This document shows positions 2,442-48,657 of a DNA stretch of 64,000 bases, in pieces. The DNA lies in NCBI RefSeq assembly GCF_000238775.2, contig NZ_AFEJ02000001.1:992001-1056000 (forward strand), in the 5' to 3' direction. This DNA is from Acaryochloris sp. CCMEE 5410. Lineage in GTDB: Bacteria; Cyanobacteriota; Cyanobacteriia; Thermosynechococcales; Thermosynechococcaceae. Under the pieces are notes generated by a model. It was not told where the DNA came from, searched no databases, and worked only from the letters and a program-made list of their open reading frames with translations. Position 1 is the first letter of the stretch. Each line of letters starts with the position of its first letter. The position numbers and the translations under genes are program-made.

Positions 2442-3845
<1,404 letters not shown>

Positions 3846-34090: not shown

Positions 34091-35243
34091 AAGCTAGGGA
34101 CTTCTTAGAGATAGGCAGGCTAGGAATTAAACCTGAGTCAGATCAGATCCTTCTCAGGCGTAGTCAGGGACTTCAATTTCCACTCCTAAGGATTGTGACA
34201 TCCTCTGGTTTTAACCGCTAGTCAATCTTGAGGATTCGGCACCTTGAACAGATTATTCGGATAGGGACCATAGAGAGCGGCAAGGTAGCATCTTCATGCT
34301 AAGCACTCAAACAAGCTTGCTAAAACTATTCAACTGAAATCAACAACATTATCTTTTTAGATAACATCCTGACAGCTTTTGCCTTACTCCAAACAATAGA
34401 GTTTTGATAATTTTCTTGTGATCTTCGATACAGTTTCCAAGATTTTATTGAGCGATTCAACTGACATCTATGGCATTAGCTTCTTACTAAAAGATCCTGA
34501 CAGCTTTAGTCTTGCCAAAGACAATACAGTTTTGATGATTTTTTGTGACTTGCAATACAGTTTTCTAGATTTTTCCAACGATTCATCTAGAATCAAAAAC
34601 ATTATCTTATCTGACAATATCCTGACAACTTTAACCTCACCTAAGGCAATAGAATTTTGGTATTTTTTTGTAATCTTCAATACAGTTAACAAGGTTTTCT
34701 ATATTCTGATAATCTTCACCTCTATGGAAAAAGGCAGATCGGTTATGAGATAACGTTCTGGACAATCAGGTTCATCGGTTCTTCATGCTTGATACATAGA
34801 GGCAGCCCTTCCAAATCAACGCCTAGCCTGCTGGATAAGCCATCTCTATCACAAAATTTTTTTGGACTTTACTACTCACAATATGTGGATGAAGTTTAAG
34901 CAGCTGATCCCTCGATGTCCTAAGAAGTAATCAACACATGTCCAAAATTCCCTTGCCAAAGGGATACACACTAAGTAACCGAATCAATCCAAAAGGTTTA
35001 TCAGAATTCACTGAACTTTAAATAGCTTATTTTTTTTTAGTGTGTTACTATCTCTTTCAAGGAAAGTTAATCGTTCTTATACAAAACTGAATACGATACT
35101 TCTATTTTCTTGAAAGCTAGATAGAAACTTATTTCTCTATGTGTTCTGTCAACAGATTCGAGTTTCTTGAGCAGATGAAGTGGGGCTAGGTTAAAGGGTT
35201 TGTCTCATCACTTTTAATTTCCTAACCTGCAGAAATCTTCCCA
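34091..35243. other. Long intergenic leader upstream of the polysaccharide locus
   Basis: 1.15 kb without a convincing gene between divergent carB and the exopolysaccharide genes. AT-rich. 34329-34708 holds a threefold tandem repeat, listed separately. The remaining part up to 35243 shows no repeat or RNA I can recognise. It should contain the locus promoter. Confidence 0.6.
34329..34708. repeat. Three diverged tandem repeats of about 126 bp
   Basis: Units start at 34329, 34456 and 34582. Shared blocks are TTCAACTGA or TTCATCTAGA, ATCCTGACAGCTTT, CAATAGAGTTTTGATAATTT and the ATACAGTTT-CAAG/AGATTTT end. Identity is only moderate, so the array is old. A 111-codon plus-strand frame (34418-34753) and a minus-strand frame cross it, but neither has a ribosome-binding site or a known domain. 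Confidence 0.75.
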
Positions 35244-36920
35244 ATGGAATTTCACATTATGACAGAGAACACGTTGGGTCAAATTCTCATACATAACCAA
35301 TTAATCGACCAAGATACGCTCACTCGAGCACTACAACAACAGAGGATTTTTTTTGATCAATCTGATTGGAAACTCCTGGGAGAAATCTTAGTCGAATCAG
35401 GAGATATCTGTCGCAAAGACTTGTGGGCTGCTTTAGATTGGCAATCTAAAGTATTTGATATCGAATTATTTACCCTCCACCCTCATCCTTCGGTGCGGAG
35501 TCGACTGAAACGATTGTTAGATGTGTTGGGGGCCATCATCGGCATAGCTATGATGCTGGTTTTGCTGCCCTTAATTGCATTCGCTATTGTGCTTGATTCG
35601 CCAGGGGCAATTTTCTTCACTCAATATCGGGTGGGCTTACGAGGAAAACAGTTTAGAATTCTAAAGTTTCGGACTATGGTGCGAAATGCAGAGCGAACTA
35701 AGCTGAAAACGACAGGAAATCAGCAGTACAAATTCTTTACTGTTCGGAATGATCCTAGGGTCACCAGAGTCGGTAAATTTCTGCGTAAAACTCACTTAGA
35801 CGAACTCCCTCAATTTATCAATGTTTTGAGAGGTGAAATGAGCTTAGTGGGCACTCGTCCTCCCACGCTGGATGAAGTGAAAGTTTACTCAAGAGAAGAT
35901 TGGCAACGGCTCTGTATCAAACCAGGAATGACGGGGCTATGGCAAACCAGTCGACAGAAATATCGGGCTGATTTTAAAAGAGTAGTCGAGCTGGATATGA
36001 ACTATGTCAGTCAATGGCAATTAGGGCTGGATCTTAAGGTCATTATTTACACAATATTACAGGTGCTATTGGGTCGCCGATGGGGTCGATATCTAACCAT
36101 AAGCACCAGCAATCATCAAGATAAAGTGACGATTTTAAATCTACCGATTGACAATCTCACTAAAGGACAATTTCTCCAAAAACTGAACCGAGGTGTTGTG
36201 TTCACGGCTAACGTCGATCATCTAATGAAGCTGCAGTACGACCAGGAATTTTGTCAGGCTTATAGTCAGGCTGATTTCAGAACTTGTGACAGTCAAATCC
36301 TTGTATATGCCTCTCAGTTTTTGGGTCAGCCTATTCAAGAAAGGTTATCGGGATCTGACTTATTCCCTGAGTTCTGTCGTTTCCATCGAGACAATGAAAA
36401 TATTAGAGTTTTTCTCCTAGGTGGATCTAAAAATGTCGCCCAAAGAGCTCAGGCTAAAATCAATCGACGATTGGGGCGAAATATTATTGTTGGAGCCCAT
36501 TCTCCTTCCTTCGGCATAGTGGAAAAACCCCAAGAATGTTTAGAAATTGTTGACCAAATCAATCAATACCAACCGACTGTCTTAGCGGTTTGCCTCGGTG
36601 CTCCCAACCAAGAGAAATGGATTTGTCGATATAAAGATCGATTACCCTCAGTAAAAATATTTTTAGCCATTGGCGCCACGATAGATTTTGAGTCCGGTAG
36701 CCAACAGCGATCTCCTCAATGGGTTAGCAATTTAGGGTTCGAATGGCTGCACCGACTAATATCTGAGCCAGAACGTCTGTGGAAACGATATTTGATCGAT
36801 GATATTCCTTTTTTCTGGTTACTACTAAAGCAAAAAATGGGGCTCTATTCTCCACCCTTCTCAATTCACGAGCAACGGGACTATCCATTTGCCTCAACTA
36901 CTTTAGAAAAGCGGATGTAA
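35244..36920 (+). CDS. MshEN-like domain + phosphoglycosyl transferase + WecG/TagA transferase fusion
   Basis: 558 residues in three parts. Residues 8-75 hold two LGxIL-x-x-x-x-x-x-x-x-x-L-x-x-AL-x-x-Q units resembling the c-di-GMP-binding MshEN domain. Residues 85-275 are a polyprenyl-phosphate sugar-1-phosphate transferase (one hydrophobic segment, KFRTMVRNAE, FLRKTHLDELPQFINVLRGEMSLVGTRP, KPGMTGLWQ). Residues 295-530 are a WecG/TagA/CpsF (GT26) transferase (TANVDHLMKL, VFLLGGSKNVA, VCLGAPNQEKWI, IGATIDFESGS). It would start the lipid-linked repeat unit and perhaps add the second sugar. ATG at 35259 is an alternative start. The Wzc-like gene follows after 6 bases. Confidence 0.87.
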   Translation: MEFHIMTENTLGQILIHNQLIDQDTLTRALQQQRIFFDQSDWKLLGEILVESGDICRKDLWAALDWQSKVFDIELFTLHPHPSVRSRLKRLLDVLGAIIGIAMMLVLLPLIAFAIVLDSPGAIFFTQYRVGLRGKQFRILKFRTMVRNAERTKLKTTGNQQYKFFTVRNDPRVTRVGKFLRKTHLDELPQFINVLRGEMSLVGTRPPTLDEVKVYSREDWQRLCIKPGMTGLWQTSRQKYRADFKRVVELDMNYVSQWQLGLDLKVIIYTILQVLLGRRWGRYLTISTSNHQDKVTILNLPIDNLTKGQFLQKLNRGVVFTANVDHLMKLQYDQEFCQAYSQADFRTCDSQILVYASQFLGQPIQERLSGSDLFPEFCRFHRDNENIRVFLLGGSKNVAQRAQAKINRRLGRNIIVGAHSPSFGIVEKPQECLEIVDQINQYQPTVLAVCLGAPNQEKWICRYKDRLPSVKIFLAIGATIDFESGSQQRSPQWVSNLGFEWLHRLISEPERLWKRYLIDDIPFFWLLLKQKMGLYSPPFSIHEQRDYPFASTTLEKRM

Positions 36921-36926
36921 CACCTG

Positions 36927-39095
36927 ATGGAATCAAGAGAAGCAATCGACATCAATCTGAATCAATATTTAGAAAAGATTAGACAACATTGGCAACCGGT
37001 CGTCACTGTTTTCGGTGTAACGGTCGCACTATCCTGCCTCACGTCTGTCTTTGTCAAACCCTCTTATGTGGCAGAGGGCAAACTTAGGTTCAAAGTAAAT
37101 CCGCCTCCCCTTTCCACAGAAATTGATGAAAAGTCAGGAGAGTTACGGCCTCTCGTTGCTACCCAAAATCCATTAAGTACAGAAATTGAAGTTATCTACG
37201 CTAAGCCTTTATTGCAAAATATGATTGACGTGCTGAGCTTAGAGAATTCTCAAGGAGACACACTCCGCCCAAAAGAAGTCTTGCAAAAACTCAGTGTTGA
37301 CATCATTGCTGGGACAGATGTCCTGAAGCTCTCCTACGAGAGCGATCAACCTCAGGAAGCTGCCAGGGTAGTGAACACCCTGATGCGTCTCTATATCTAT
37401 GGCAATATTCAAAATCAGCGTTCACGAGCACTTTCTGCCCGAAAGTTTATTGCCGCCCAGCTGCCCCAACGCGAGTCGGTGGTGCGAGAAGCGGAAGAGA
37501 ACTTAAGCCGATTTAAAGAGAAGCACAACATTGTCGATTTAAAGGAGGAAGAAGAAGCTACAGTTAGTGCCATTTCAAAACTCGACAGCGAAATTACGTT
37601 AGCGCAAAGTGAGTTTGATGCAGCAGTGGCTCGCTCAACAACCCTTAGGAATCAGGTCGGCTTAAGTTCCCTGAATGCGATCGCAGCGAATAAGCTAAGT
37701 CAATCATCAGAAATCAAGGAAATATTACGGGAACTCCAAAGCGTTGAACGTCAGTTGGCCACAGCTCAGAAAGACTTTCAAGAAGGATTCCCCACCGTCG
37801 TTAGTCTCAAGGATAGACGGTCAGCGCTTCGGGCTTTACTTCGCCAAAAGACCCAGAAAACCATCCAAGGGGATTCATTATCAGCAGCTGTGCGTGCCGA
37901 TATCGATGATCCTGAACAAAATACAATTAATGATTTTCTCTCAGCAGAGGTTCAACGGCAAGCAGTTGCTAAGCGTTTAGCCTCTTTAAGGCGGGGTCGT
38001 TCTACCTACAATCGTCGGACCCAAACGCTACCGAAGCTGAGACAAGTTCTACGTGAACTTGAGCGAAAGTCAGAAGCAGCCCAGTCAACCTACGAAACGC
38101 TGTTAAAAAACTTGCAAGAACTCCAGGTTGCTGAAAATACCAACACGAGTAGTGCTCAGATAATTGAGCAAGCACTTACCCCAACAGAAGGGACGACCCT
38201 CAAGAAGAAAGCAACCGTGATTGCTTTTGGAATTTTGTTGGGAGCTTTTCTGGCTTCAGCATCCGTTCCCATATTAGGAATGCGACAAGAGTACTTCTTA
38301 AAGTCAAAGATGAAATCCCTTGAAGATTCGATTGATTCCCTTCAAGGTCTCCTGGATTACCCGATATGGTCCGTCATCCCACACATTGAGTTAAAACATC
38401 AAATGAGCGATCACACCCCCAGTTCCCTCATCTCCATGCTGGGGGAGATGCATCGCATGATCAGAGCGAATCCCCAGCTCTTAAGCGATGATCATTCACT
38501 CAAATCACTGGTTGTCACCAGTATTGATGTTCAAGAAGGGAAATCAACGGTTGCAGCTAATTTGGCCATAGCAATGGCTCAGCTAGAACAGCGAGTTCTA
38601 CTTATTGACGCCAATTTGCAAAGCCCTAAACAGCATCACCTCTTCAATCTTCCCAATGAGCTAGGACTGTCAACTGCCATTAAAGACACTTCAATTCGAC
38701 CTGCTGAAGTCAAGATGATTATTCATCGGGTACCAGGCAATCTAGATGTCCTCACATCAGGCTCGAAACCAGCTAGTCCCATGAGCCTGCTCAGTAGTGA
38801 ACGAATGCATTTGTTAATGCAGTATTTTGCCTGGAACTATGACTTCGTCATCTTCGATACATCTCCGTTATTGGATGTGGTTGGGACCTCAGCACTAGCC
38901 AATATGGCAGATGGTGTTCTTTTTGTGACCAATCCAACCATGACTCAATCCAAGGAACTAGAAATAGCAACAGAAATCATCAATCAATTCGAACCCAACA
39001 TCATTGGCACAGTGGTCAACAACGGAAAAACACAGGACCACTCTAAGGGCCATTTACCTAGTTTCAGAATCGACTTAGCTAGACAAAGCACCTAG
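36927..39095 (+). CDS. Wzc-like chain-length/ATPase protein, atypical
   Basis: 722 residues. N-terminal Wzz domain with a first membrane segment (VTVFGVTVALSCLTSVFV), a long coiled-coil middle (about 180-420), a second segment (AFGILLGAFLASASVPIL) and a C-terminal BY-kinase/ParA-like ATPase domain. Expected to control polysaccharide chain length and export with the neighbouring flippase and polymerase. The ATPase motifs are altered: Walker A is DVQEGKST rather than PGEGKST, Walker A' is LLIDANLQSP rather than LLIDADLRRP. The tail has no tyrosine cluster. Autokinase activity is therefore doubtful. Confidence 0.88.
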   Translation: MESREAIDINLNQYLEKIRQHWQPVVTVFGVTVALSCLTSVFVKPSYVAEGKLRFKVNPPPLSTEIDEKSGELRPLVATQNPLSTEIEVIYAKPLLQNMIDVLSLENSQGDTLRPKEVLQKLSVDIIAGTDVLKLSYESDQPQEAARVVNTLMRLYIYGNIQNQRSRALSARKFIAAQLPQRESVVREAEENLSRFKEKHNIVDLKEEEEATVSAISKLDSEITLAQSEFDAAVARSTTLRNQVGLSSLNAIAANKLSQSSEIKEILRELQSVERQLATAQKDFQEGFPTVVSLKDRRSALRALLRQKTQKTIQGDSLSAAVRADIDDPEQNTINDFLSAEVQRQAVAKRLASLRRGRSTYNRRTQTLPKLRQVLRELERKSEAAQSTYETLLKNLQELQVAENTNTSSAQIIEQALTPTEGTTLKKKATVIAFGILLGAFLASASVPILGMRQEYFLKSKMKSLEDSIDSLQGLLDYPIWSVIPHIELKHQMSDHTPSSLISMLGEMHRMIRANPQLLSDDHSLKSLVVTSIDVQEGKSTVAANLAIAMAQLEQRVLLIDANLQSPKQHHLFNLPNELGLSTAIKDTSIRPAEVKMIIHRVPGNLDVLTSGSKPASPMSLLSSERMHLLMQYFAWNYDFVIFDTSPLLDVVGTSALANMADGVLFVTNPTMTQSKELEIATEIINQFEPNIIGTVVNNGKTQDHSKGHLPSFRIDLARQST

Positions 39096-39153
39096 TAATA
39101 GGTCGCACATGTAAATATCCATTTATTCAAACCAATAAAATCAGTGATCATTT

Positions 39154-39247
39154 TATAGCGGATTGCATAACTATCGAAACTACATAATCAGCATAAAGCC
39201 TTGTTAGGAAGGTGCTTGATGTTTCTATAATTCTGAAAACCGCTATA
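39154..39247. mobile_element. Possible MITE
   Basis: 94-bp AT-rich segment with inverted ends TATAGCGGATT / AACCGCTATA, of the type seen in IS630-related elements that use TA targets. Lies between the Wzc-like and flippase genes. Short repeats make this tentative. Confidence 0.4.
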
Positions 39248-39285
39248 ACGATGAAGCAAAAAGATAAAACCTCAAGGAAAAGTTA

Positions 39286-40716
39286 ATGGCAGAAAAAAAG
39301 TTAGTCGCAAATTCCTTGGCTTTGATTAGCAATCGAATCGTACAAAGTGCAACCTCCTTTATCGTCCTTGCACTCATTGCCCGAAGCCTTGGGTCATTTG
39401 CATTAGGTCAGTATACCCTGGCATTCAGCTATTACTTTGTATTCATGACGCTTGTTTCATCAGGCTTTAAAACCTTATTTACTAGAGAATTATCTCAAAA
39501 GTCTTCAGAAATATCTTCTTATTTAATTAGCGGAACCTCCCTACAACTTCTCTTTAGCATAATTGGCTACATATTACTTTTTCTAGTAGTTCACTTCATG
39601 CCATACACAAGTACTACTGAAAATATTTGCTATGTTATTGGGTTGGCAATCATCCCTTTTTCTCTTTCAAACATCGTTGAAGCGATCTTTCAAGCTCAAG
39701 AGAAAATGCATTGGATTGCAATCTGTACAATCCCTGTCTATATCGTCCGAACAATCATCATTTACCTCGGACTAATATCTGGGTATGGAATCATCCTAAC
39801 GTCAGGAATTTTTGTTATTTCTGAATCTATAATTTTTCTTTTTGAATGGTATCTAATCCAAAAATTCAATCAGTTTAGATGGACTATAGATAAAGGCTTT
39901 ATTCAAAAGACTATAAAACTAGCTAGGACCTTTTTAGCAATAGATGGAATCTCAGTATTTAGAGAAAGGATGGAGATTTTTATCATCTCTCTGTTCAGTA
40001 ACGAAAGTACCATCGGACTTTATGGCTCAGTTATGCAGCTAATGCAACCTTTCTCTATCGTGTCAGATAGTATCGTTTTAGCTGCCTTTCCAAAAATGTC
40101 AAAAATGTCCTCCTCTAGTTCTAAGTCCAAAAAAGAGCTAGCGGAAAGAGCCATCGAATTATTGTTACTCTTAGCTATACCAATGTTCTTTGGCACGTTA
40201 TTTTTTAGTCGCCATCTTTTACTTTTTATCTATCAAGATCTTGACTTTGCCGATGCATCAATTGCGCTCTGCATTATATCATTTGGCATGGTAACCAGAG
40301 CATTTAACAAGCCTCTGAGCTATACGTTAGTTGCAAATCACCTGGAACAGATCAACTTAAAAGAAGTTCTCTATGGAACTGCCTTTGGTGGATTGATTAG
40401 TGTGATATTCGTTAGTCAATTTCAACTAGAAGGTGCAGCAGTCTCTACCATCTTTGTGAAATTATTTGGAATTTGGGTTTATACCTACGCGACTTTCAAA
40501 CGACTGTTTCATCTAAATTTTTGGCGGGTTGTTAAACGTCCTCTTTTGGTTGGGGGTTTAATGGCACTTCTGTTTACAGCGCTAAATACAGCTAAAGTAG
40601 ACTTCTTTTCAACTTTAACGATATCAATCTTAGTCTATAGTCTTGTCATATTTCTCATGGCTTTTCAGTCTCTTGAACTATCAAATCAGCTGTTCTCAAA
40701 ATTACTCCGTAAGTAA
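39286..40716 (+). CDS. Polysaccharide flippase (Wzx-like)
   Basis: 476 residues with about 12-14 membrane segments. The N-terminus ANSLALISNRIVQSATSFIVLALIARSLGSFALGQYTLAFSYYF is typical of the polysaccharide-transporter branch of the MOP superfamily. It should move the lipid-linked repeat unit across the plasma membrane. ATG at 39286 has AAGGA eight bases upstream. The next gene begins 9 bases downstream. Confidence 0.87.
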   Translation: MAEKKLVANSLALISNRIVQSATSFIVLALIARSLGSFALGQYTLAFSYYFVFMTLVSSGFKTLFTRELSQKSSEISSYLISGTSLQLLFSIIGYILLFLVVHFMPYTSTTENICYVIGLAIIPFSLSNIVEAIFQAQEKMHWIAICTIPVYIVRTIIIYLGLISGYGIILTSGIFVISESIIFLFEWYLIQKFNQFRWTIDKGFIQKTIKLARTFLAIDGISVFRERMEIFIISLFSNESTIGLYGSVMQLMQPFSIVSDSIVLAAFPKMSKMSSSSSKSKKELAERAIELLLLLAIPMFFGTLFFSRHLLLFIYQDLDFADASIALCIISFGMVTRAFNKPLSYTLVANHLEQINLKEVLYGTAFGGLISVIFVSQFQLEGAAVSTIFVKLFGIWVYTYATFKRLFHLNFWRVVKRPLLVGGLMALLFTALNTAKVDFFSTLTISILVYSLVIFLMAFQSLELSNQLFSKLLRK

Positions 40717-40725
40717 TCCAATTTC

Positions 40726-41823
40726 ATGAAAGTAGTATTAATCCATTTTTGTTTCGAAGACTATTCAATTGAGCTCATCAATAGCTTAAGTAAGCATGTC
40801 GATTTAACGGTTATCCAACCTAAGAATGTTTATTTAAAATGCCGACAACATATTAATTCAATCGTAAAAGTTAAATATTTTAAGAAATATCGTATTCGTG
40901 ATCCACGCAACCTTTTTTCCATGAGATCAATGGTGCAAATGGTAAAAAGGGTCAACCCTGATATTCTTCATGTTCAAGAAACGAATGATCCTTGGTATGA
41001 TTTGACCCTTTTCACTAATCATTCTTTTCCATTAGTCACCACTATCCATGATGTTTATCGTCATCCCGGCGATCGCGACCTTATTCCTGGTTCAGACTTT
41101 ACTCGTCGAATCGCTATTTTTCGGTCCAAACAACTTATTGTCCATGGCTGCAAACAAAAACAACAATTACATGAACGATTTCCAGAATTATTAGGCAGAG
41201 TCAACGTCATTCCTCATGGCGAACTTGGAACCTTATACAAGCAATTTATAGATCAGCATCACTCCCCCCCAAGAGAGCAAAATAGCCTCTTATTCTTTGG
41301 GCGTATTTGGCCTTACAAAGGTTTGAGCTACTTACTCAAAGCGATGTCGCTTGTTATTAAAGAGATTCCAGACGTCAAGTTAACTATAGCGGGCCGAGGA
41401 GAAAACTTAGACCAATATTCCCATATCTTGTCTGACAAGAAACACTATACCGTTCTTAATCGCTTTATTCCATCTGCTGAGGTAACCAAACTTTTTTTAC
41501 AAAGTACAGCAGTAGTTCTGCCCTATGTTGAAGCATCACAAAGTGGAGTAGCCTCTCTAGCGTTTGGTTTAGGTACTCCTATCATCGCTTCCAATGTAGG
41601 GGGACTCAGTGAGGTGATCCACCATAGTAAAGATGGTCTGCTAGTACCTCCGCGTGACGTTAATCAGCTCGCCAAATCAATTATTTATTTACTCAAAAAT
41701 CGCCAGATTCAGCACCAAATGCAAGCTGCGACATCTGCTCGTTGTAAGACAGATTTGAAATGGTCAAATATCGCTAACCAAACTATCGATGTTTATCAAA
41801 AGGTAGGCAGTTCATGCACATAA
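40726..41823 (+). CDS. Glycosyltransferase family 4
   Basis: 365 residues with a GT-B fold. N-terminal domain contains DILHVQETNDPWYDLTLF and TTIHDVYRHPGDRD; C-terminal nucleotide-sugar domain contains LLFFGRIWPYKGLSYLLKAM, LTIAGRGENLDQY and VLPYVEASQSGVASLAFGLGTPIIAS. Sugar donor not predictable. Part of the exopolysaccharide locus, nine bases after the flippase gene. Confidence 0.9.
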   Translation: MKVVLIHFCFEDYSIELINSLSKHVDLTVIQPKNVYLKCRQHINSIVKVKYFKKYRIRDPRNLFSMRSMVQMVKRVNPDILHVQETNDPWYDLTLFTNHSFPLVTTIHDVYRHPGDRDLIPGSDFTRRIAIFRSKQLIVHGCKQKQQLHERFPELLGRVNVIPHGELGTLYKQFIDQHHSPPREQNSLLFFGRIWPYKGLSYLLKAMSLVIKEIPDVKLTIAGRGENLDQYSHILSDKKHYTVLNRFIPSAEVTKLFLQSTAVVLPYVEASQSGVASLAFGLGTPIIASNVGGLSEVIHHSKDGLLVPPRDVNQLAKSIIYLLKNRQIQHQMQAATSARCKTDLKWSNIANQTIDVYQKVGSSCT

Positions 41824-41980
41824 AGCACCTAAATCTCAAAGAGTGATTATAGCAATAAACACTCTTTAAATTTCAAGGACACTAAAATTCATCAGTCCAC
41901 AGAATGAATCATTTCTATTTCATGTCGTTGCATTATTCGCTCAATAATCTTCAATATAAAAACCAGAAAACTCTCTAGAG

Positions 41981-43231
41981 ATGAAAGATTATTTTATTCT
42001 ATTTGAAAAATTTTTTACTATTTTTTCTATCACAATCTTTTCTGATGGGCTTTTTAGATTAGTTCTTTCAGGGGGTGCGAATGAAGGTGACTTAGGAGTC
42101 ATCAAACATACTGATTACTCCATATTACTGCTAATTTACAAGCTAATTTATATCACTACACTCATATTATTGATTCTCAGATGGAAAAAAATATTACATA
42201 TTCTAAGCAAAGATAAAATTATTAGTCTAGCCATCATTTTTGCTGCCACATCTGTGTTTTGGTCTTTTGACCCACAAATAACTTTTACGCGCAGCATCGC
42301 TTTAGTTGGTACATCGTTATTTGGTCTATACTTTGGTTCCCGATACAGTTTAGAAGAGCAATTACACAACTTATCTATAGCATTTGGAATAGCTATTGCT
42401 TTGAGTTTTATCACTTCCATATTGCTGCCTAAATATGGAATTATGTCTGGAATCCATGCAGGATCATGGCGAGGAATATATATCCACAAAAATATACTTG
42501 GAAAAATGATGGCACTCAGTTCATCAATCTTTCTAGTTAGACTTCATTCCAATAAAAGCACGATATTAAACCGTCTAGGATTAAGCCTGTCAGTCGTTTT
42601 ACTAGTACTCTCTAAATCATCTTCAGCGATTGGTACGTTTATTGTCCTTTTTACTATCTTTCTTGTCTTAGGAGTTTTTCGGTGGAAATATGAATTAATG
42701 ATTCCCGCTTTACTTTCTATTCTCTTAATTGGAATAAGTGGGCTATTTTTTCTCACTGAACATATGGATACGCTTCTTATATCCGCGGGCAAAGATCCAA
42801 CTTTAACCGGCCGAACTGAATTATGGCTTTGGGCTCTTAGTGATATTTGGGAACGCCCTTGGTTGGGATATGGTTATGGTGCTTTTTGGGAGGATTTTAG
42901 TAGCAAGTCTGCCCTAATTCGATATGCTGCTGGTTGGCACATACCCCATGCTCACAATGGTTTATTGGATCTTCTACTAGACTTGGGCTTTTTAGGTCTT
43001 TTTATTTTAATTCTAAGTATTATTAGAACCGCAATTAAATCCTTCTTTCTACTACGAAATACTACATCATCTATTTATATTTGGCCTCTATTATTTATCA
43101 GCAATATGATTTTAGCTAATACCACTGAATCAACCTTAATGGTTAGAAATGATCTATTTTGGATAATTTTTTTGGCAATTTCTTTCTCTATGATTTCTCA
43201 TCCTAAAACAATACAAGCTGCATCTACATAA
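41981..43231 (+). CDS. O-antigen ligase/Wzy-type polymerase
   Basis: 416 residues with about 10-12 membrane segments. The Wzy_C domain contains the arginine loop SWRGIYIHKNILGKMMALS and the large periplasmic loop ending GRTELWLWALSDIWERPWLGYGYGAFW and IPHAHNGLLDLLLDLG. It should polymerise or ligate the polysaccharide repeat units in the periplasm. Clearly AT-rich. ATG at 41981. Confidence 0.88.
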   Translation: MKDYFILFEKFFTIFSITIFSDGLFRLVLSGGANEGDLGVIKHTDYSILLLIYKLIYITTLILLILRWKKILHILSKDKIISLAIIFAATSVFWSFDPQITFTRSIALVGTSLFGLYFGSRYSLEEQLHNLSIAFGIAIALSFITSILLPKYGIMSGIHAGSWRGIYIHKNILGKMMALSSSIFLVRLHSNKSTILNRLGLSLSVVLLVLSKSSSAIGTFIVLFTIFLVLGVFRWKYELMIPALLSILLIGISGLFFLTEHMDTLLISAGKDPTLTGRTELWLWALSDIWERPWLGYGYGAFWEDFSSKSALIRYAAGWHIPHAHNGLLDLLLDLGFLGLFILILSIIRTAIKSFFLLRNTTSSIYIWPLLFISNMILANTTESTLMVRNDLFWIIFLAISFSMISHPKTIQAAST

Positions 43232-43518
43232 ACATTCTTTAGCTTAAATATTCATCAAAATCCGATTAATCTTTATCCTCATAATGCTTTCAATACAGAT
43301 TTACAAACCCTAAAGGCTTAAATATTGATTGTGATTTTTAATTCTCAATCCAATTACCTATGAAGAATTTGTATTCACATCAACTATATTCCATTCAAAT
43401 ACAACAAAAAATTCACCGATTGCCATCCATTTATCACTAGTAATTCTAGTGTTGATTAGCAAAGTATAAACAGGGGGAAATAAATGGGGGAGCTGTAGTA
43501 TTGAAATCCTGAATAGCT

Positions 43519-44634
43519 ATGACAACAACATTTAATAGATTTCAAAAAAAGACTTCTCTCAAATCCTGCCACCGAGCATTAATCCTTGGCCCAAGCCTAG
43601 AACAGAACGGCGGCATGGCTACTGTTCAAAATTTAATTTTGGCCCATGCTCCTTCTCGATATATTCTTCGACATATTTGTACTCATGATGAAGGCTCAGC
43701 TTTACATCGTGGAATTATTTTCATTAGGGCTATAGCTACTTTTTTGAGAACTCTATTATCTAGAAAAGTCGATATAGTCCACATCCACGTATCCGAACGA
43801 GGCAGCGTATTGCGAACAGTTCTGCTTACAATCCTTTCGTTTATTTTTCATCGACCTGTCATTCTTCATGCCCATGGGGCTGAGTTCAAGCCCTTTTTCT
43901 TGAAAATGCCAGGATGGACCCAAAGCATTATCAGTGGTATTTTCGGTCAATGTGATGGATTTATTGTTTTATCTGATTTCTGGCAAAACTTTTATATTTC
44001 CCAACTAGGTTTACTCCCAGAGAGAGTTTTTACTTTACCTAATTCAATTGAACTCCCTTCAGAAATCCCCTATCGACAGAGTTCTCATCCTGTTAATTTA
44101 GTTTTTTGTGGGCGAGTTGGACATCGAAAGGGAGCCTTTGACCTGCTTCAAGCTTTCGCTGAGCTGCCCCCTCATCTCCAAGCCTATACCCGCTTGACAA
44201 TTGCAGGGGATGGCGAGATTGGGCAAGGGCAGCTTCTAGCAGACCGTTTGGGATTGTCTGACCATGTTACTTTTCTGGGTTGGATTAATCCTGAACAACG
44301 CGACCAAATGCTAGCAAATGCAAATATTTTTATTTTGCCTTCCTATAATGAGGGACTTCCTTTAGCAATATTGGAAGCTATGGCCTGGGGAATCCCTCCG
44401 ATTACAACCCCTGTAGGAGGAATTCCTGAAGTCGTTGTGCCTAATCAGAATGGTTTACTGGTTTCACCGGGTAATGTGCAACAACTCTCCCAAGCAATAC
44501 AGTATTTACTCGAGGATGCAGAACTAAGACTCAAATTAGGCAAATCAGCAAGATCAACTGCCGAATCATTAGATATCAAAACCTACGCCCATCGTTTAGG
44601 TCGCATTTACGATAGAGTCCTACAACGCTCTTAA
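43519..44634 (+). CDS. Glycosyltransferase family 4
   Basis: 371 residues. The GT4 core LVFCGRVGHRKGAFDLLQAFAELP, LTIAGDGEIGQGQLL, VTFLGWINPEQRDQML and the EX7E motif EGLPLAILEAMAWGIPPITT are all present. N-terminal LILGPSLEQNGGMATVQNLIL fits the acceptor domain. ATG at 43519. It is separated from the polymerase gene by 287 bases in which I see no gene. Confidence 0.92.
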   Translation: MTTTFNRFQKKTSLKSCHRALILGPSLEQNGGMATVQNLILAHAPSRYILRHICTHDEGSALHRGIIFIRAIATFLRTLLSRKVDIVHIHVSERGSVLRTVLLTILSFIFHRPVILHAHGAEFKPFFLKMPGWTQSIISGIFGQCDGFIVLSDFWQNFYISQLGLLPERVFTLPNSIELPSEIPYRQSSHPVNLVFCGRVGHRKGAFDLLQAFAELPPHLQAYTRLTIAGDGEIGQGQLLADRLGLSDHVTFLGWINPEQRDQMLANANIFILPSYNEGLPLAILEAMAWGIPPITTPVGGIPEVVVPNQNGLLVSPGNVQQLSQAIQYLLEDAELRLKLGKSARSTAESLDIKTYAHRLGRIYDRVLQRS

Positions 44635-44753
44635 GCTATTACATGGCTTATGTTTTATTGAGGCAAATGAAATGTTCGCGTTGAGTTCTGTCGTTTCAAA
44701 ATCAGTTTGAATCTCATAACGTAATTCGAGTTACATACTATTTAGAACCAGCA

Positions 44754-45935
44754 ATGATTCCCTATTTAAATCGAAGGCGTCTTCTTAGATTAGGTTTAGG
44801 TGCCTTTACTAGCCTAGGAACTCTTTTAGGAAGTCGATCAATATTTCACAATCACAAGCTATCTGCTTTGGATAATCCTAGTCGTGATTTTTCAATAACG
44901 GAGTGGCTCCCCTTAAGAGAACTAGCTGCTGACAAAGACATCATTTTTGGGGCATCGGCTCGCTACAATCAGGTCATTTCTGATGAACAGTTTGCGGCCC
45001 TGTTTGCCCAAGAATGTAGCGTGCTAGTTCCTGAATGGGAGCTGAAATGGAGCGCAGGAGATTATCAGCTTCGCCCTAGTCCCAATGAGTTTGACTTTTC
45101 CGCTGCCGATACAATGCTCGACTTTGCACAAACGCATAATTTACAGTTTCGTGGTCATGCTTTAGTTTGGCATGAGTCATTGCCCCAATGGTTCCAGCAG
45201 GTGGTGAACCATCAAAACGCTGAAAAAGTTATGAAGCACCACATAGAAACGGTGATGGGGCACTATCGAGGCCGCATGCATTCTTGGGATGTTGTCAATG
45301 AAGCAATTGATTACGACCCAATAGCAAGTCAACGGGCAGACCGTTTAAGACAGACTCCATGGCTTCAGTTCCTAGGTCCTGACTATATCGATCTTGCTTT
45401 TCGGATCGCAGCAAGGGCTGATCCCGATGCCTTATTGGTGTACAACGACTTTGGTGTGGACTACAACACAGCAATGGATAAAGCCAAACGCCGTGCTGTT
45501 TTAGGACTTCTCAAACGCTTAAAAACGAAGGGTACTCCGGTCCATGCCTTGGGAATACAAGCTCATTTGCACGGGGACTCCCTTGACTTCGATCCTAAAT
45601 CGCTACGCCAGTTCTTGAAAGATGTGGCTGCTTTAGATCTGAAAATTTTAATTACTGAGATGGATGTTAATGACTCCCAGTTACCTAGGGATATCCAAAG
45701 ACGCGATCGCATTGTTGCTGGGGTCTATGAGGACTACCTTTCAGTGGTTTTGGATGAGCCAGCGGTTATTGCTGTCATTACATGGGGACTCAGCGATCGC
45801 TACACCTATTTGTCTGAGTTCCATCCTCGATCTGATCATCAGCCTGTCCGCCCTTTGCCAATGGACACTAATCTACAGCCTAAGTTGGCCTGGAATGCAT
45901 TGGCCCGTGCCTTCCAACAGACTCGCAAGCGGTAG
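44754..45935 (+). CDS. GH10 endo-1,4-beta-xylanase-like hydrolase
   Basis: 393 residues. Glycoside hydrolase family 10: acid/base Glu183 in WDVVNEA and nucleophile Glu302 in LITEMDVND, with FRGHALVWHESLPQWF before them. The N-terminus RRRLLRLGLGAFTSLGTLLG resembles a Tat signal, so export is likely. Being the last gene of the exopolysaccharide locus suggests it trims, edits or releases the polymer made here rather than feeding on plant xylan; that is inference. Confidence 0.9.
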   Translation: MIPYLNRRRLLRLGLGAFTSLGTLLGSRSIFHNHKLSALDNPSRDFSITEWLPLRELAADKDIIFGASARYNQVISDEQFAALFAQECSVLVPEWELKWSAGDYQLRPSPNEFDFSAADTMLDFAQTHNLQFRGHALVWHESLPQWFQQVVNHQNAEKVMKHHIETVMGHYRGRMHSWDVVNEAIDYDPIASQRADRLRQTPWLQFLGPDYIDLAFRIAARADPDALLVYNDFGVDYNTAMDKAKRRAVLGLLKRLKTKGTPVHALGIQAHLHGDSLDFDPKSLRQFLKDVAALDLKILITEMDVNDSQLPRDIQRRDRIVAGVYEDYLSVVLDEPAVIAVITWGLSDRYTYLSEFHPRSDHQPVRPLPMDTNLQPKLAWNALARAFQQTRKR

Positions 45936-46072
45936 ATCAACTCTAATCATTTGGAAGCTTATTGCCTCAAATTAATTGAGCCATAAAGGTTTGAGAGCTT
46001 ACTTCAGACTCTCTAGCCTGCTTATTTCAGTAATTTGCCAACACAACACAAGTGCAAAAGATATTTAATAGT

Positions 46073-46171
46073 TATAGCAATTAAAATCATTTATATACGC
46101 TTTAGACATTATTTTTGTATTCAATAGCTATAGCGCTTAAAATAACACCTATACGCTTTAGCTACTATTTT
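46073..46171. promoter_or_regulatory. Two direct repeats upstream of hipB
   Basis: Units 46073-46115 and 46129-46171, 56 bp apart, share TATAGC, TTAAAAT, TATACGCTTTAG and TATTTT. The second ends 3 bases before the HipB start. Likely operator sites for HipB autoregulation or a small duplicated promoter region. Confidence 0.5.
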
Positions 46172-46174
46172 GGA

Positions 46175-46426
46175 ATGAATATTTCTTCGCCCACAGTACT
46201 GGCTGAATATGCCAGAGATCGCCGAAAAAGGATGGGACTCAACCAATCTGAAGTAGGAGATCGAACCGGGGTCAGACAAGTAACCGTCTCGGCCTTTGAG
46301 AACCGTCCAGCCAGTACCAAACTGGAGACCCTATTCAAACTGTTATCGGCATTAGAGCTTGAGCTGCAAGTCGTGCCAAAAGAGCAGGCTAGCAATGCTA
46401 ATCAAGGATGGGATGAAGAGTGGTAA
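46175..46426 (+). CDS. HipB-like XRE-family antitoxin/repressor
   Basis: 83 residues from ATG at 46175 (an upstream ATG at 46115 is in frame but adds low-complexity residues). The Cro/C1-type helix-turn-helix is LAEYARDRRKRMGLNQSEVGDRTGVRQVTVSAFENRPASTKLETLFKLLSALELELQVV, as in HipB. It should bind the kinase below and repress the operon. The stop overlaps the start of the hipA-like gene by seven bases, the usual hipBA layout. Confidence 0.9.
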   Translation: MNISSPTVLAEYARDRRKRMGLNQSEVGDRTGVRQVTVSAFENRPASTKLETLFKLLSALELELQVVPKEQASNANQGWDEEW

Positions 46427-48657
46427 AGGCCAAGGGGAGTGGAACTCTAAATGTCTTGATGAATGGTCGCTTGGTTGGTTTTTGGCATCAGAGCACAACG
46501 GGAGCGAACACGTTCCAGTATGCAGAAGAATGGCTCGCAACCCCTGGTGCCCGCCCCTTATCCTTATCAATGCCTTTACGCAGCAAAGCGTACGGAGGGC
46601 AGCAGGTCTATAACTTTTTCGAAAACTTGTTGCCGGATAGTAAAGACATTCGGAATAAGATACAGACGAGGTTTCAGACATCCACAAATCAACCCTTTGA
46701 TTTGTTAAGTGCAGTAGGGAGTGATTGTGTAGGAGCTGTACAACTTTGCCATCAATTGCCCGGACCAAACGTTAAAACAGTCACCAAGCAGGTTCTCACA
46801 GAAGCTGAAATTGCTGAACGTCTGCAAAACCATAAGATGGGACCTCTGGGCATGACTAGAGAGGTAGACGACTTTCGAATTTCAATTGCGGGTGCTCAAG
46901 AAAAAACTGGGCTGCTGTGGCACAACCAGAAATGGTGCTTACCCACTGGAACAACACCTACAAGCCACATTTTTAAGTTACCGATAGGGGTAATTACTAG
47001 CCACAATATCGATCTGAGCGAGAGCTGTGAAAATGAATGGCTCTGTTTGAAAATTGCTGAAGCTTTTGGGCTGCCTGTAGCAAAGGTTGATATCCAGACT
47101 TTTGAAGATGTCAAGGTCCTAGTTGTAGAACGATTTGACAGAAAGTGGTCAAGGGATGGGAGTTGGTTGATGAGACTCCCCCAAGAAGATATGTGCCAAG
47201 TATTTGGGGTAGCTTCTATCAAAAAGTATCAAGCAGACGGAGGACCAGGCATCGTCGAGATTATGAAGATCCTGATCGGCTCCAATCAACCCCAAGTCGA
47301 TAGGGAGCAATTCTTTAAAGCACAAATTTTATTTTGGCTCTTGGCAGCAATAGACGGCCATGGCAAAAATTTCAGTGTTTACTTAGACCCCAATGCCAGC
47401 TATCGGTTAACCCCCTTATATGATGTGCTATCAGCCTACCCATCAATGCAGACAAAAGAAATTCCTAAGCAAAAAGCAAAGATGGCGATGGCACTGAAGG
47501 GTAAAAGGAACCGCTATGAGTGGTCACAAATTCAGCTTAGGCATTTTCTATCCACGGCGAAGGCTGCAGAGTTTTCAGAGAAACAAACAGTCTCTCTATT
47601 GCTAGAGATGCTGGAGAAGGCTGAATTTTTTGCCCAACAAGTTCAAGAGCAACTACCGAAAGATTTTCCCACCCATATTAGTCAGCCGATTTTAGAGGGG
47701 ATGACATCTCTTGCAAAGCAGAATTTGCCAACCCTATACCAATTAATCGGAAATCACGCTGAAAAGGGAGAGTATGAAAATGCGCTCACGTTCTATACAA
47801 AAGCCCTCAACCTGAAAGCTGAAATTCAGGATCAATCCGGTACAGCTTCTCAAGTAGATATATCTCAAGTAGATATTTGGCATGGAATTGCCAATATCTA
47901 TGTCCATCAAAGACAGGGGAAAAAAGCACTTTCAGTTTACGAAAAGATCCTGAAACTCAATAAACAGATTGGGAGCCGAAAGGATCAATCGGTTACCTTA
48001 CACCAAATTGCAAATGTCTATGTCAATGAAGGGATGGAGGAAACAGCACTCTTAATTTACGAAAAATCCCTAAAGTTTGAAGAACAAGGCAAAAATCTGC
48101 AGGGCAAAGCAGTTACCTTGCACTGCATAGCAGTTATCTACGCTAGACAAGAAAAATTAGATAAAGCGTTGTCCTACTTTGAAGAGTCTTTAGATATTAA
48201 AGAACAGATAGGGGATTGGAAGGGGCAAATAGATACCTTGCATCAAATTGCAAATGTCTACGATCAGAATCAAGATATAGAACAAGCTCTTTCATTTGAT
48301 TCCAAAGCCTTCGAGATTGCGACAGAAAATAAGGATGTGCACAAGCAAGCTGACATCCTGCACAGCATGGCTAGCCTTTATGCTCAACAAAGACAAATAA
48401 AACAAGCCTTGTCTTATTTTGAACAGTCTTTAACTCTTCGTGAGGAACTCCAAGATTTGCAAGGCAAAGCAATTACTCTTGCCAGGATGGGACAAATGTT
48501 GGCTAGAGACCAAGGTGATTTTGACAAAGCAATAATCCATATCCAAAAATCACTAGAGATATTGCGAGCACTAGAATCTCCTGATGTAACCAACGTTGGA
48601 AATATCCTCACACATATTCGAGAGACCAGGCGAGATTCAAATCGTGCCTCTAAATAA
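46420..48657 (+). CDS. HipA-like Ser/Thr kinase toxin fused to a TPR domain
   Basis: 745 residues from GTG at 46420, against about 440 for E. coli HipA. Residues 1-445 are a full HipA kinase: HipA_N part (LNVLMNGRLVGFW), autophosphorylated Ser155 in DFRISIAGAQEKTGL, MRLPQEDMCQVFG, catalytic Asp312 in IDGHGKNFSV and metal-binding Asp335 in LTPLYDVLSAYP. E. coli HipA phosphorylates glutamyl-tRNA synthetase. Residues 450-740 are about seven 40-residue TPR units (ALSYFEESLDIKEQIGDWKG type), expected to bind a partner. Its 3' end overlaps the convergent natD-like gene by 21 bases. Confidence 0.9.
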   Translation: MVKAKGSGTLNVLMNGRLVGFWHQSTTGANTFQYAEEWLATPGARPLSLSMPLRSKAYGGQQVYNFFENLLPDSKDIRNKIQTRFQTSTNQPFDLLSAVGSDCVGAVQLCHQLPGPNVKTVTKQVLTEAEIAERLQNHKMGPLGMTREVDDFRISIAGAQEKTGLLWHNQKWCLPTGTTPTSHIFKLPIGVITSHNIDLSESCENEWLCLKIAEAFGLPVAKVDIQTFEDVKVLVVERFDRKWSRDGSWLMRLPQEDMCQVFGVASIKKYQADGGPGIVEIMKILIGSNQPQVDREQFFKAQILFWLLAAIDGHGKNFSVYLDPNASYRLTPLYDVLSAYPSMQTKEIPKQKAKMAMALKGKRNRYEWSQIQLRHFLSTAKAAEFSEKQTVSLLLEMLEKAEFFAQQVQEQLPKDFPTHISQPILEGMTSLAKQNLPTLYQLIGNHAEKGEYENALTFYTKALNLKAEIQDQSGTASQVDISQVDIWHGIANIYVHQRQGKKALSVYEKILKLNKQIGSRKDQSVTLHQIANVYVNEGMEETALLIYEKSLKFEEQGKNLQGKAVTLHCIAVIYARQEKLDKALSYFEESLDIKEQIGDWKGQIDTLHQIANVYDQNQDIEQALSFDSKAFEIATENKDVHKQADILHSMASLYAQQRQIKQALSYFEQSLTLREELQDLQGKAITLARMGQMLARDQGDFDKAIIHIQKSLEILRALESPDVTNVGNILTHIRETRRDSNRASK

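Follow-up and report, generated by a model that had tools for sequence, protein, structure and literature searches.

An E. coli-kind HipA kinase extended by a TPR tail in Acaryochloris

What might a HipA kinase do with some 300 residues of TPR repeats behind a kinase fold that already looks complete? The question was raised by an earlier note on a 64,000-nucleotide stretch of the genome of Acaryochloris sp. CCMEE 5410 (hereafter the window), which described a hipBA pair whose HipA runs on into a TPR domain. According to the literature searched so far, HipA-TPR is a previously undescribed variant of HipBA of the E. coli kind. TPR would join the domains known to be fused to Hip kinases, and an E. 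coli-type HipA with a fast-changing and predicted rigid interaction module would offer a direct handle on substrate choice and on release from HipB, and a natural experiment on what directs these kinases or sets them off.

Gene layout and hipB

The features of the locus, all on the forward strand of the window, are as follows.

46062-46117 and 46118-46173, forward: two 56-bp direct repeats, putative HipB operators (repeat comparison; a similar pair occurs in the sister locus L048)
46175..46426, forward: hipB, antitoxin/repressor of 83 aa with a C-terminal Trp (HTH_3, NCBIfam HipB model, PDB HipB 5k98/2wiu)
46420..48657, forward: hipA-TPR, one open frame of 745 aa with a GTG start, overlapping hipB by 7 nt
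46420..47727, forward: HipA kinase part, residues 1-436 (profiles, alignment, structure match)
within 46420..47727, forward: N-subdomain, residues 10-109; HipA_C, residues 154-394; Ser155, Asp312 and Asp335
47671..47763, forward: predicted bridging helix, residues 418-448 (AlphaFold models of both species)
47728..48591, forward: seven TPR units, residues 437-724 (profiles, hand-set register, model)
48586..48654, forward: predicted capping helix, residues ~723-745 (AlphaFold model)

As the earlier note had it, hipB lies upstream of hipA and the start of hipA overlaps it. We read hipB from the ATG at 46175; a longer TTG frame from 46115 is also open. The product has an HTH_3 match above the Pfam cut-off, matches HipB in the PDB at E 2e-12, and scores 65.8 bits against the NCBIfam HipB model, below the cut-off of 79. 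Window HipB ends in ...DEEW and the aligned E. coli HipB likewise ends in Trp; the C-terminal Trp is found both in the window and in the sister species described below. The upstream repeats are 77% identical to each other, and the value for the L048 pair is 92% over 52 nt. By analogy with hipBA autoregulation, they are possible HipB operators. A promoter and terminator scan of the locus gave results at chance level.

The HipA kinase part

The kinase part contains both domains and the expected motifs and aligns with nearly full-length E. coli HipA, in keeping with the earlier description of it as complete. Pfam profile searches placed Couple_hipA at residues 10-109 (92 bits) and HipA_C at residues 154-394 (176 bits); TIGR03071 scored 109 bits, and N-subdomain-1 is present. 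In a PDB sequence search, E. coli HipA (2wiu) matched residues 13-423 of the query with 379 bits and E 3e-112. The modelled HipA part matched E. coli HipA with a TM-score of 0.93, normalised by target.

Ser155, Asp312 and Asp335, contained in FRISIAGAQEKT, DGHGKNFS and PLYDV, are invariant among 36 aligned HipA sequences, one of them the window's. IAGAQEKT, LPQEDMCQ, DGHGKNFS and PLYDV align with E. coli HipA, and we take these letters to represent individual HipA kinase motifs. Ser155 is probably the counterpart of the Ser by the Gly-rich loop that is autophosphorylated in hipBA-type HipA. A list of Hip kinase motifs is given in the available portion of PMC8262856.

The pair resembles E. coli K-12 hipBA in its gene order, its upstream HTH-type HipB with a C-terminal Trp, its N-subdomain plus kinase core, and its motifs. 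In the Hip tree published in 2021 (PMC8262856, in its available portion), E. coli K-12 hipBA belongs to clade I. The window protein is about 41-45% identical to E. coli HipA, with TM-scores of 0.90-0.93 in structure matches; in the PDB sequence search it scored closest to E. coli HipA, at 379 bits against 93 for Shewanella HipA. The difference lies at the C-terminus. E. coli HipA is a chain of 440 aa and the 2wiu alignment stops at its residue 421, which bears out the earlier statement that it ends where the TPR part begins, whereas the window protein has 309 further TPR residues.

The TPR tail and its join to the kinase

The tail (residues 437-745, 309 residues) consists of seven TPR units and a last helix. 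TPR_12 matched it with 127.6 bits and E 2e-37 in four stretches, and several other TPR models exceeded their Pfam cut-offs. The assignment of the tail as TPR is thus beyond chance. With the register set by hand, five of the seven units are exactly 40 aa long. The 745-aa frame, the TPR profiles and a second genome with its own fusion together uphold the earlier claim of a real TPR tail of about 300 residues fused in frame.

A structure model of the full chain, which the earlier note had called for, predicts a HipA fold continuous with a TPR superhelix. The AlphaFold model of the window protein has a mean pLDDT of 89.1 and a pTM of 0.80, with pLDDT values exceeding 90 in most of the tail; that of the sister protein has a mean pLDDT of 87.6 and a pTM of 0.87. 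Both are models of monomers. In both, the last HipA helix continues unbroken as helix A of TPR1 (residues 418-448 in the window protein and 418-447 in the sister), and a rigid attachment of the tail to the C-lobe, without a flexible linker, is predicted.

The solved folds nearest to the modelled tail in a structure search were LGN/Pins, with designed TPRs and kinesin light chain scoring lower. LGN/Pins and kinesin light chain are, like the tail, TPR superhelices of 40-residue units, several of them solved with partners, but they are eukaryotic scaffolds with about 17-21% identity to the tail, and the resemblance is one of fold only. The LGN-like match may be general for TPRs of 40 aa and say little about ligands.

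Comparison with described Hip kinases

We found no description of a HipA-TPR fusion in the literature searched, which was mostly outside subscription papers; the fusion was thus not found described as a common HipA subtype, a possibility that the earlier note had raised against its own reading. The word TPR does not occur in the available portion of PMC8262856, where the family with a C-terminal extension is HipL, with HIRAN. HipL is described there as lacking N-subdomain-1, as having HipS-like and HIRAN domains, and as monocistronic. As far as that portion goes, HipL is, like the window protein, a Hip kinase much enlarged at its C-terminus by a different kind of domain, and differs from it in that the window HipA has N-subdomain-1, an upstream hipB, and a TPR rather than a HIRAN tail. 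HIRAN is absent from window HipA among the matches listed (25 families). HipAD (DS-6) pairs its HipA-related kinase with another protein, containing DUF3037 and DUF1829, and no TPR is named for it in the available portion of PMC13092281. TPR is also absent from the available portion of PMC2701414, as are both HipA and TPR from that of PMC8949462, a 2022 study of 37 Acaryochloris marina strains.

Nearer relatives are the hipBA pairs of other cyanobacteria that have no TPR, namely L049 (labelled a Thermosynechococcus MAG), G011/L005, Microcoleus L053, L050, and the Pseudanabaena loci L037, L051, L052, L054 and L124. Their HipA proteins are about 58-66% identical to the window's, and those placed in our tree fall in the same cyanobacterial clade as the fused pair. 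They differ in ending 14-20 aa past the residue aligned to 427, and their flanks have no TPR gene resembling the tails.

Distribution of HipA with and without a tail

The closest relative of the window, Acaryochloris sp. IP29b_bin.137 (L048, identical by contig and position to G005/L003), has the same fusion, in a 587-aa frame with a shorter tail that TPR_12 matches above its cut-off (58.8 bits). Counting by eye and on the model's helices gave four TPR units in this sister protein, against seven in the window. Because a second genome carries an in-frame copy with its own, different tail, the fusion is most unlikely to be an artefact of assembly or frame that joined two genes. The predicted helix is also continuous over the join and the frame has no stop or shift; we consider the chance of an artefact negligible.

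Two peptide patterns, run against 84,980 species genomes, gave at least 572 confirmed relatives, of which we examined the best 80. Among these 80 loci, only the sister continues for more than 40 aa beyond the end of HipA; the other 79 continue for 27 aa at most. Within the window's family, five of 29 genomes contain a relative at E 1e-10 (the window's, G005, G008, G009 and G011), with tails in the window and G005 only. The G008 relative (L006/L007, G008:C73) is split into two overlapping frames, probably by a frameshift or a draft error.

Wider samples gave a relative at E 1e-20 in 36 of 386 genomes of the phylum and a HipA_C match above the cut-off in 29 of 388 genomes of the class. The listed frames of at least 485 aa in these two samples, the window and G005 apart, were those of G432, G044, G295 (twice), G395 and G011, and they end no more than 20 aa past the HipA end. 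HipA_C matches were also found in at least 178 of 369 genomes from the class of a Legionella, in at least 111 of 299 from the phylum of a MAG labelled Myxococcales (some genomes being shared with the Legionella-class set), and in 70 of 395 from the phylum of a MAG labelled Pelobacter. Among the matches listed for these three groups, frames of at least 485 aa included no second HipA-TPR fusion. Long HipA frames in these genome sets mostly have N-terminal extensions: each of 33 such frames (475-623 aa) stops no more than 34 aa from where HipA is estimated to end, and not one matched a TPR tail.

A tree of 38 HipA cores united the two fused proteins in one clade (100/100), nested in a cyanobacterial clade (98/99) whose other eight rows have no tail. 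Given this placement and the tail-less relatives, the tail is best read as a gain in the Acaryochloris lineage. So far HipA-TPR has been seen only in Acaryochloris, and it is absent from the relatives examined outside the genus.

Within the genus the module is not uniformly kept. At the same locus in G004 (L164, G004:C131, about 2678-3032), hipB is interrupted by one internal stop and only a fragment of hipA is left (the start and residues ~40-69). These remains of the module lie ~1.3 kb from livH on one side and adjoin the xylanase gene on the other; no TPR remnant was found at this broken locus. The hipBA module is decaying in G004. No HipA_C match exceeds the cut-off in G001, G002, G003 and G006, Acaryochloris drafts of 82-92% completeness; G002 has a weak one of 22.5 bits. 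The module therefore seems dispensable, being broken in G004 and unmatched in four genomes of the genus.

Divergence and origin of the tail

The window and sister proteins are 91% identical in the kinase and 57% in TPR1; across the 108 codons that can be aligned further on, identity is ~30%. For hipA codons 1-427 of the window and L048, dN was 0.047 and dS 0.36 by NG86 (0.053 and 0.24 by YN00), giving dN/dS of ~0.13 (0.22 by YN00). The corresponding dN and dS were 0.027 and 0.54 for hipB and 0.0085 and 0.55 for the backbone gene carB. The low hipA ratio indicates that the kinase has been kept by purifying selection, less tightly than hipB or carB; the dS of hipA is somewhat lower than that of either gene.

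The tail presents a different picture. Nucleotide identity between the two genes drops from 0.88 over residues 421-440 to 0.70 over residues 441-460, and seven of the 19 identical residues in 437-474 have differing codons, against 15-23% per block in residues 1-436. TPR1 has a dS of 1.4 against 0.36 in HipA (NG86), a value from 47 codons only that hints at recombination; beyond TPR1, dS is not computable. All of this could have been caused by recombination with other TPR genes that swapped the tails after the species split, and the best G005 match of the window tail, at E 1e-15, is indeed another TPR gene (C301) and not the HipA tail. We regard such a swap as possible but somewhat unlikely. 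The dS signal comes from those 47 codons, in a unit that is still 57% identical, and in the 29 family genomes the best other match of the sister's tail is the window's HipA tail. Nor did a donor above 34% identity appear: the best other match was 51 bits in the window's own genome and 90 bits, at 30% identity, in the family genomes. Gain and loss of units together with fast divergence would give the same picture.

Whether the tail exists elsewhere as a separate gene, one of the two objections that the earlier note foresaw, was examined in 87 loci of relatives. No TPR gene like either tail lies beside hipA in them (flanks to ~4 kb, E 1e-3; a TPR unlike both tails could escape this search), and the only match of both tails was the fused sister protein, which argues against a separate neighbor gene and leaves the fusion standing. 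Spread by phage or plasmid was also considered and set aside: there was no relative in viral contigs, in a search sensitive to close relatives only; two phage records, neither covering more than 56%; and none of 1,912 part-matching plasmid records covering 80%, in a set that may omit records near the window's genome. The PADLOC matches were weak for PDC-M03A and for HTH models, and one was to a general TPR model (81.6 bits).

Possible function

We propose that the locus is a working hipBA of the E. coli kind and that the tail has a binding partner through which the kinase is targeted or gated, a reading to which we give about an even chance. HipB would repress the promoter and neutralize HipA, and free HipA would phosphorylate an aminoacyl-tRNA synthetase, most likely GltX, so that growth stops. 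The Acaryochloris lineage would have lengthened the final helix of HipA into a TPR superhelix, and this tail would bind a partner protein, bringing the kinase to its target or gating its release from HipB. We infer kinase activity, target and rescue by HipB from sequence likeness to the E. coli system. Partner binding and its effect, the least-supported step, we infer from the TPR units kept in both species, the predicted rigid coupling, and the renewal of the tail at a faster rate than the kinase. The tail also resembles the peptide-binding class of TPR (LGN, kinesin light chain), and fast turnover of a tail on a kept kinase is as expected of a part that recognizes partners. No partner or conserved neighbor of HipA-TPR was found in the loci compared.

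The main rival to this proposal holds that chance joined a TPR array to HipA in the Acaryochloris ancestor and that the array is a passenger, tolerated and drifting, on a HipA that works as in E. coli without it. The tail occurs in one genus only, its length and sequence differ greatly between the sisters, and none of the other five genomes of the genus examined has an intact module, all of which a passenger would explain. Both tails nevertheless keep in-frame TPR units and profile matches above the cut-offs despite a backbone dS of 0.36-0.55, and we think a passenger rather unlikely. The tail could also act on the kinase itself, by self-associating or folding back, and restrain HipA as a second layer beside HipB. 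The rigid helix that links tail and C-lobe in both models could relay conformational signals, but these are monomer models, and we judge self-restraint improbable. If the proposed partner binding is right, the kept kinase and antitoxin and the tail renewed between sisters would allow a more speculative reading, which we consider doubtful: the tail may be an exchangeable address or trigger module, so that each species would have its HipA triggered by, or directed to, a partner of its own, e.g. a phage or stress protein. With two intact fusions only, conservation of the tail cannot be mapped onto a binding groove.

Gene neighbors and other HipA-like frames

The earlier note set the pair beside an exopolysaccharide locus. 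This is so in the window, where the gene to the left of hipBA is GH10-xylanase-like and the last of an exopolysaccharide-type cluster at 35244..45935 (names by eye); the gene to the right is a livH-like permease gene, also named by eye. The carB gene lies ~12 kb from hipBA, beyond the cluster (intervening stretch 34249-46061). The xylanase-side neighbor is the same at the G004 site. The adjacency does not extend to G005 (L166), where the immediate neighbors of hipBA are carB and a hemN-like gene (by eye), with no exopolysaccharide cluster between carB and hipBA. Closeness to exopolysaccharide genes is therefore not constant.

At the tail-less Pseudanabaena loci L037, L054 and L124, a gene for a 729-aa RarA/MgsA-type AAA+ ATPase (6352-8541 in L037), which was not found at the close relatives L051 and L052, starts ~7 bp after hipA. 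Many cyanobacteria (e.g. G036, G194, G154 and G096) contain frames of ~300-320 aa with a weak HipA_C match of 20-30 bits, often to profile positions 116-165 and often under the cut-off; these perhaps represent a distant HipA-like kinase family.
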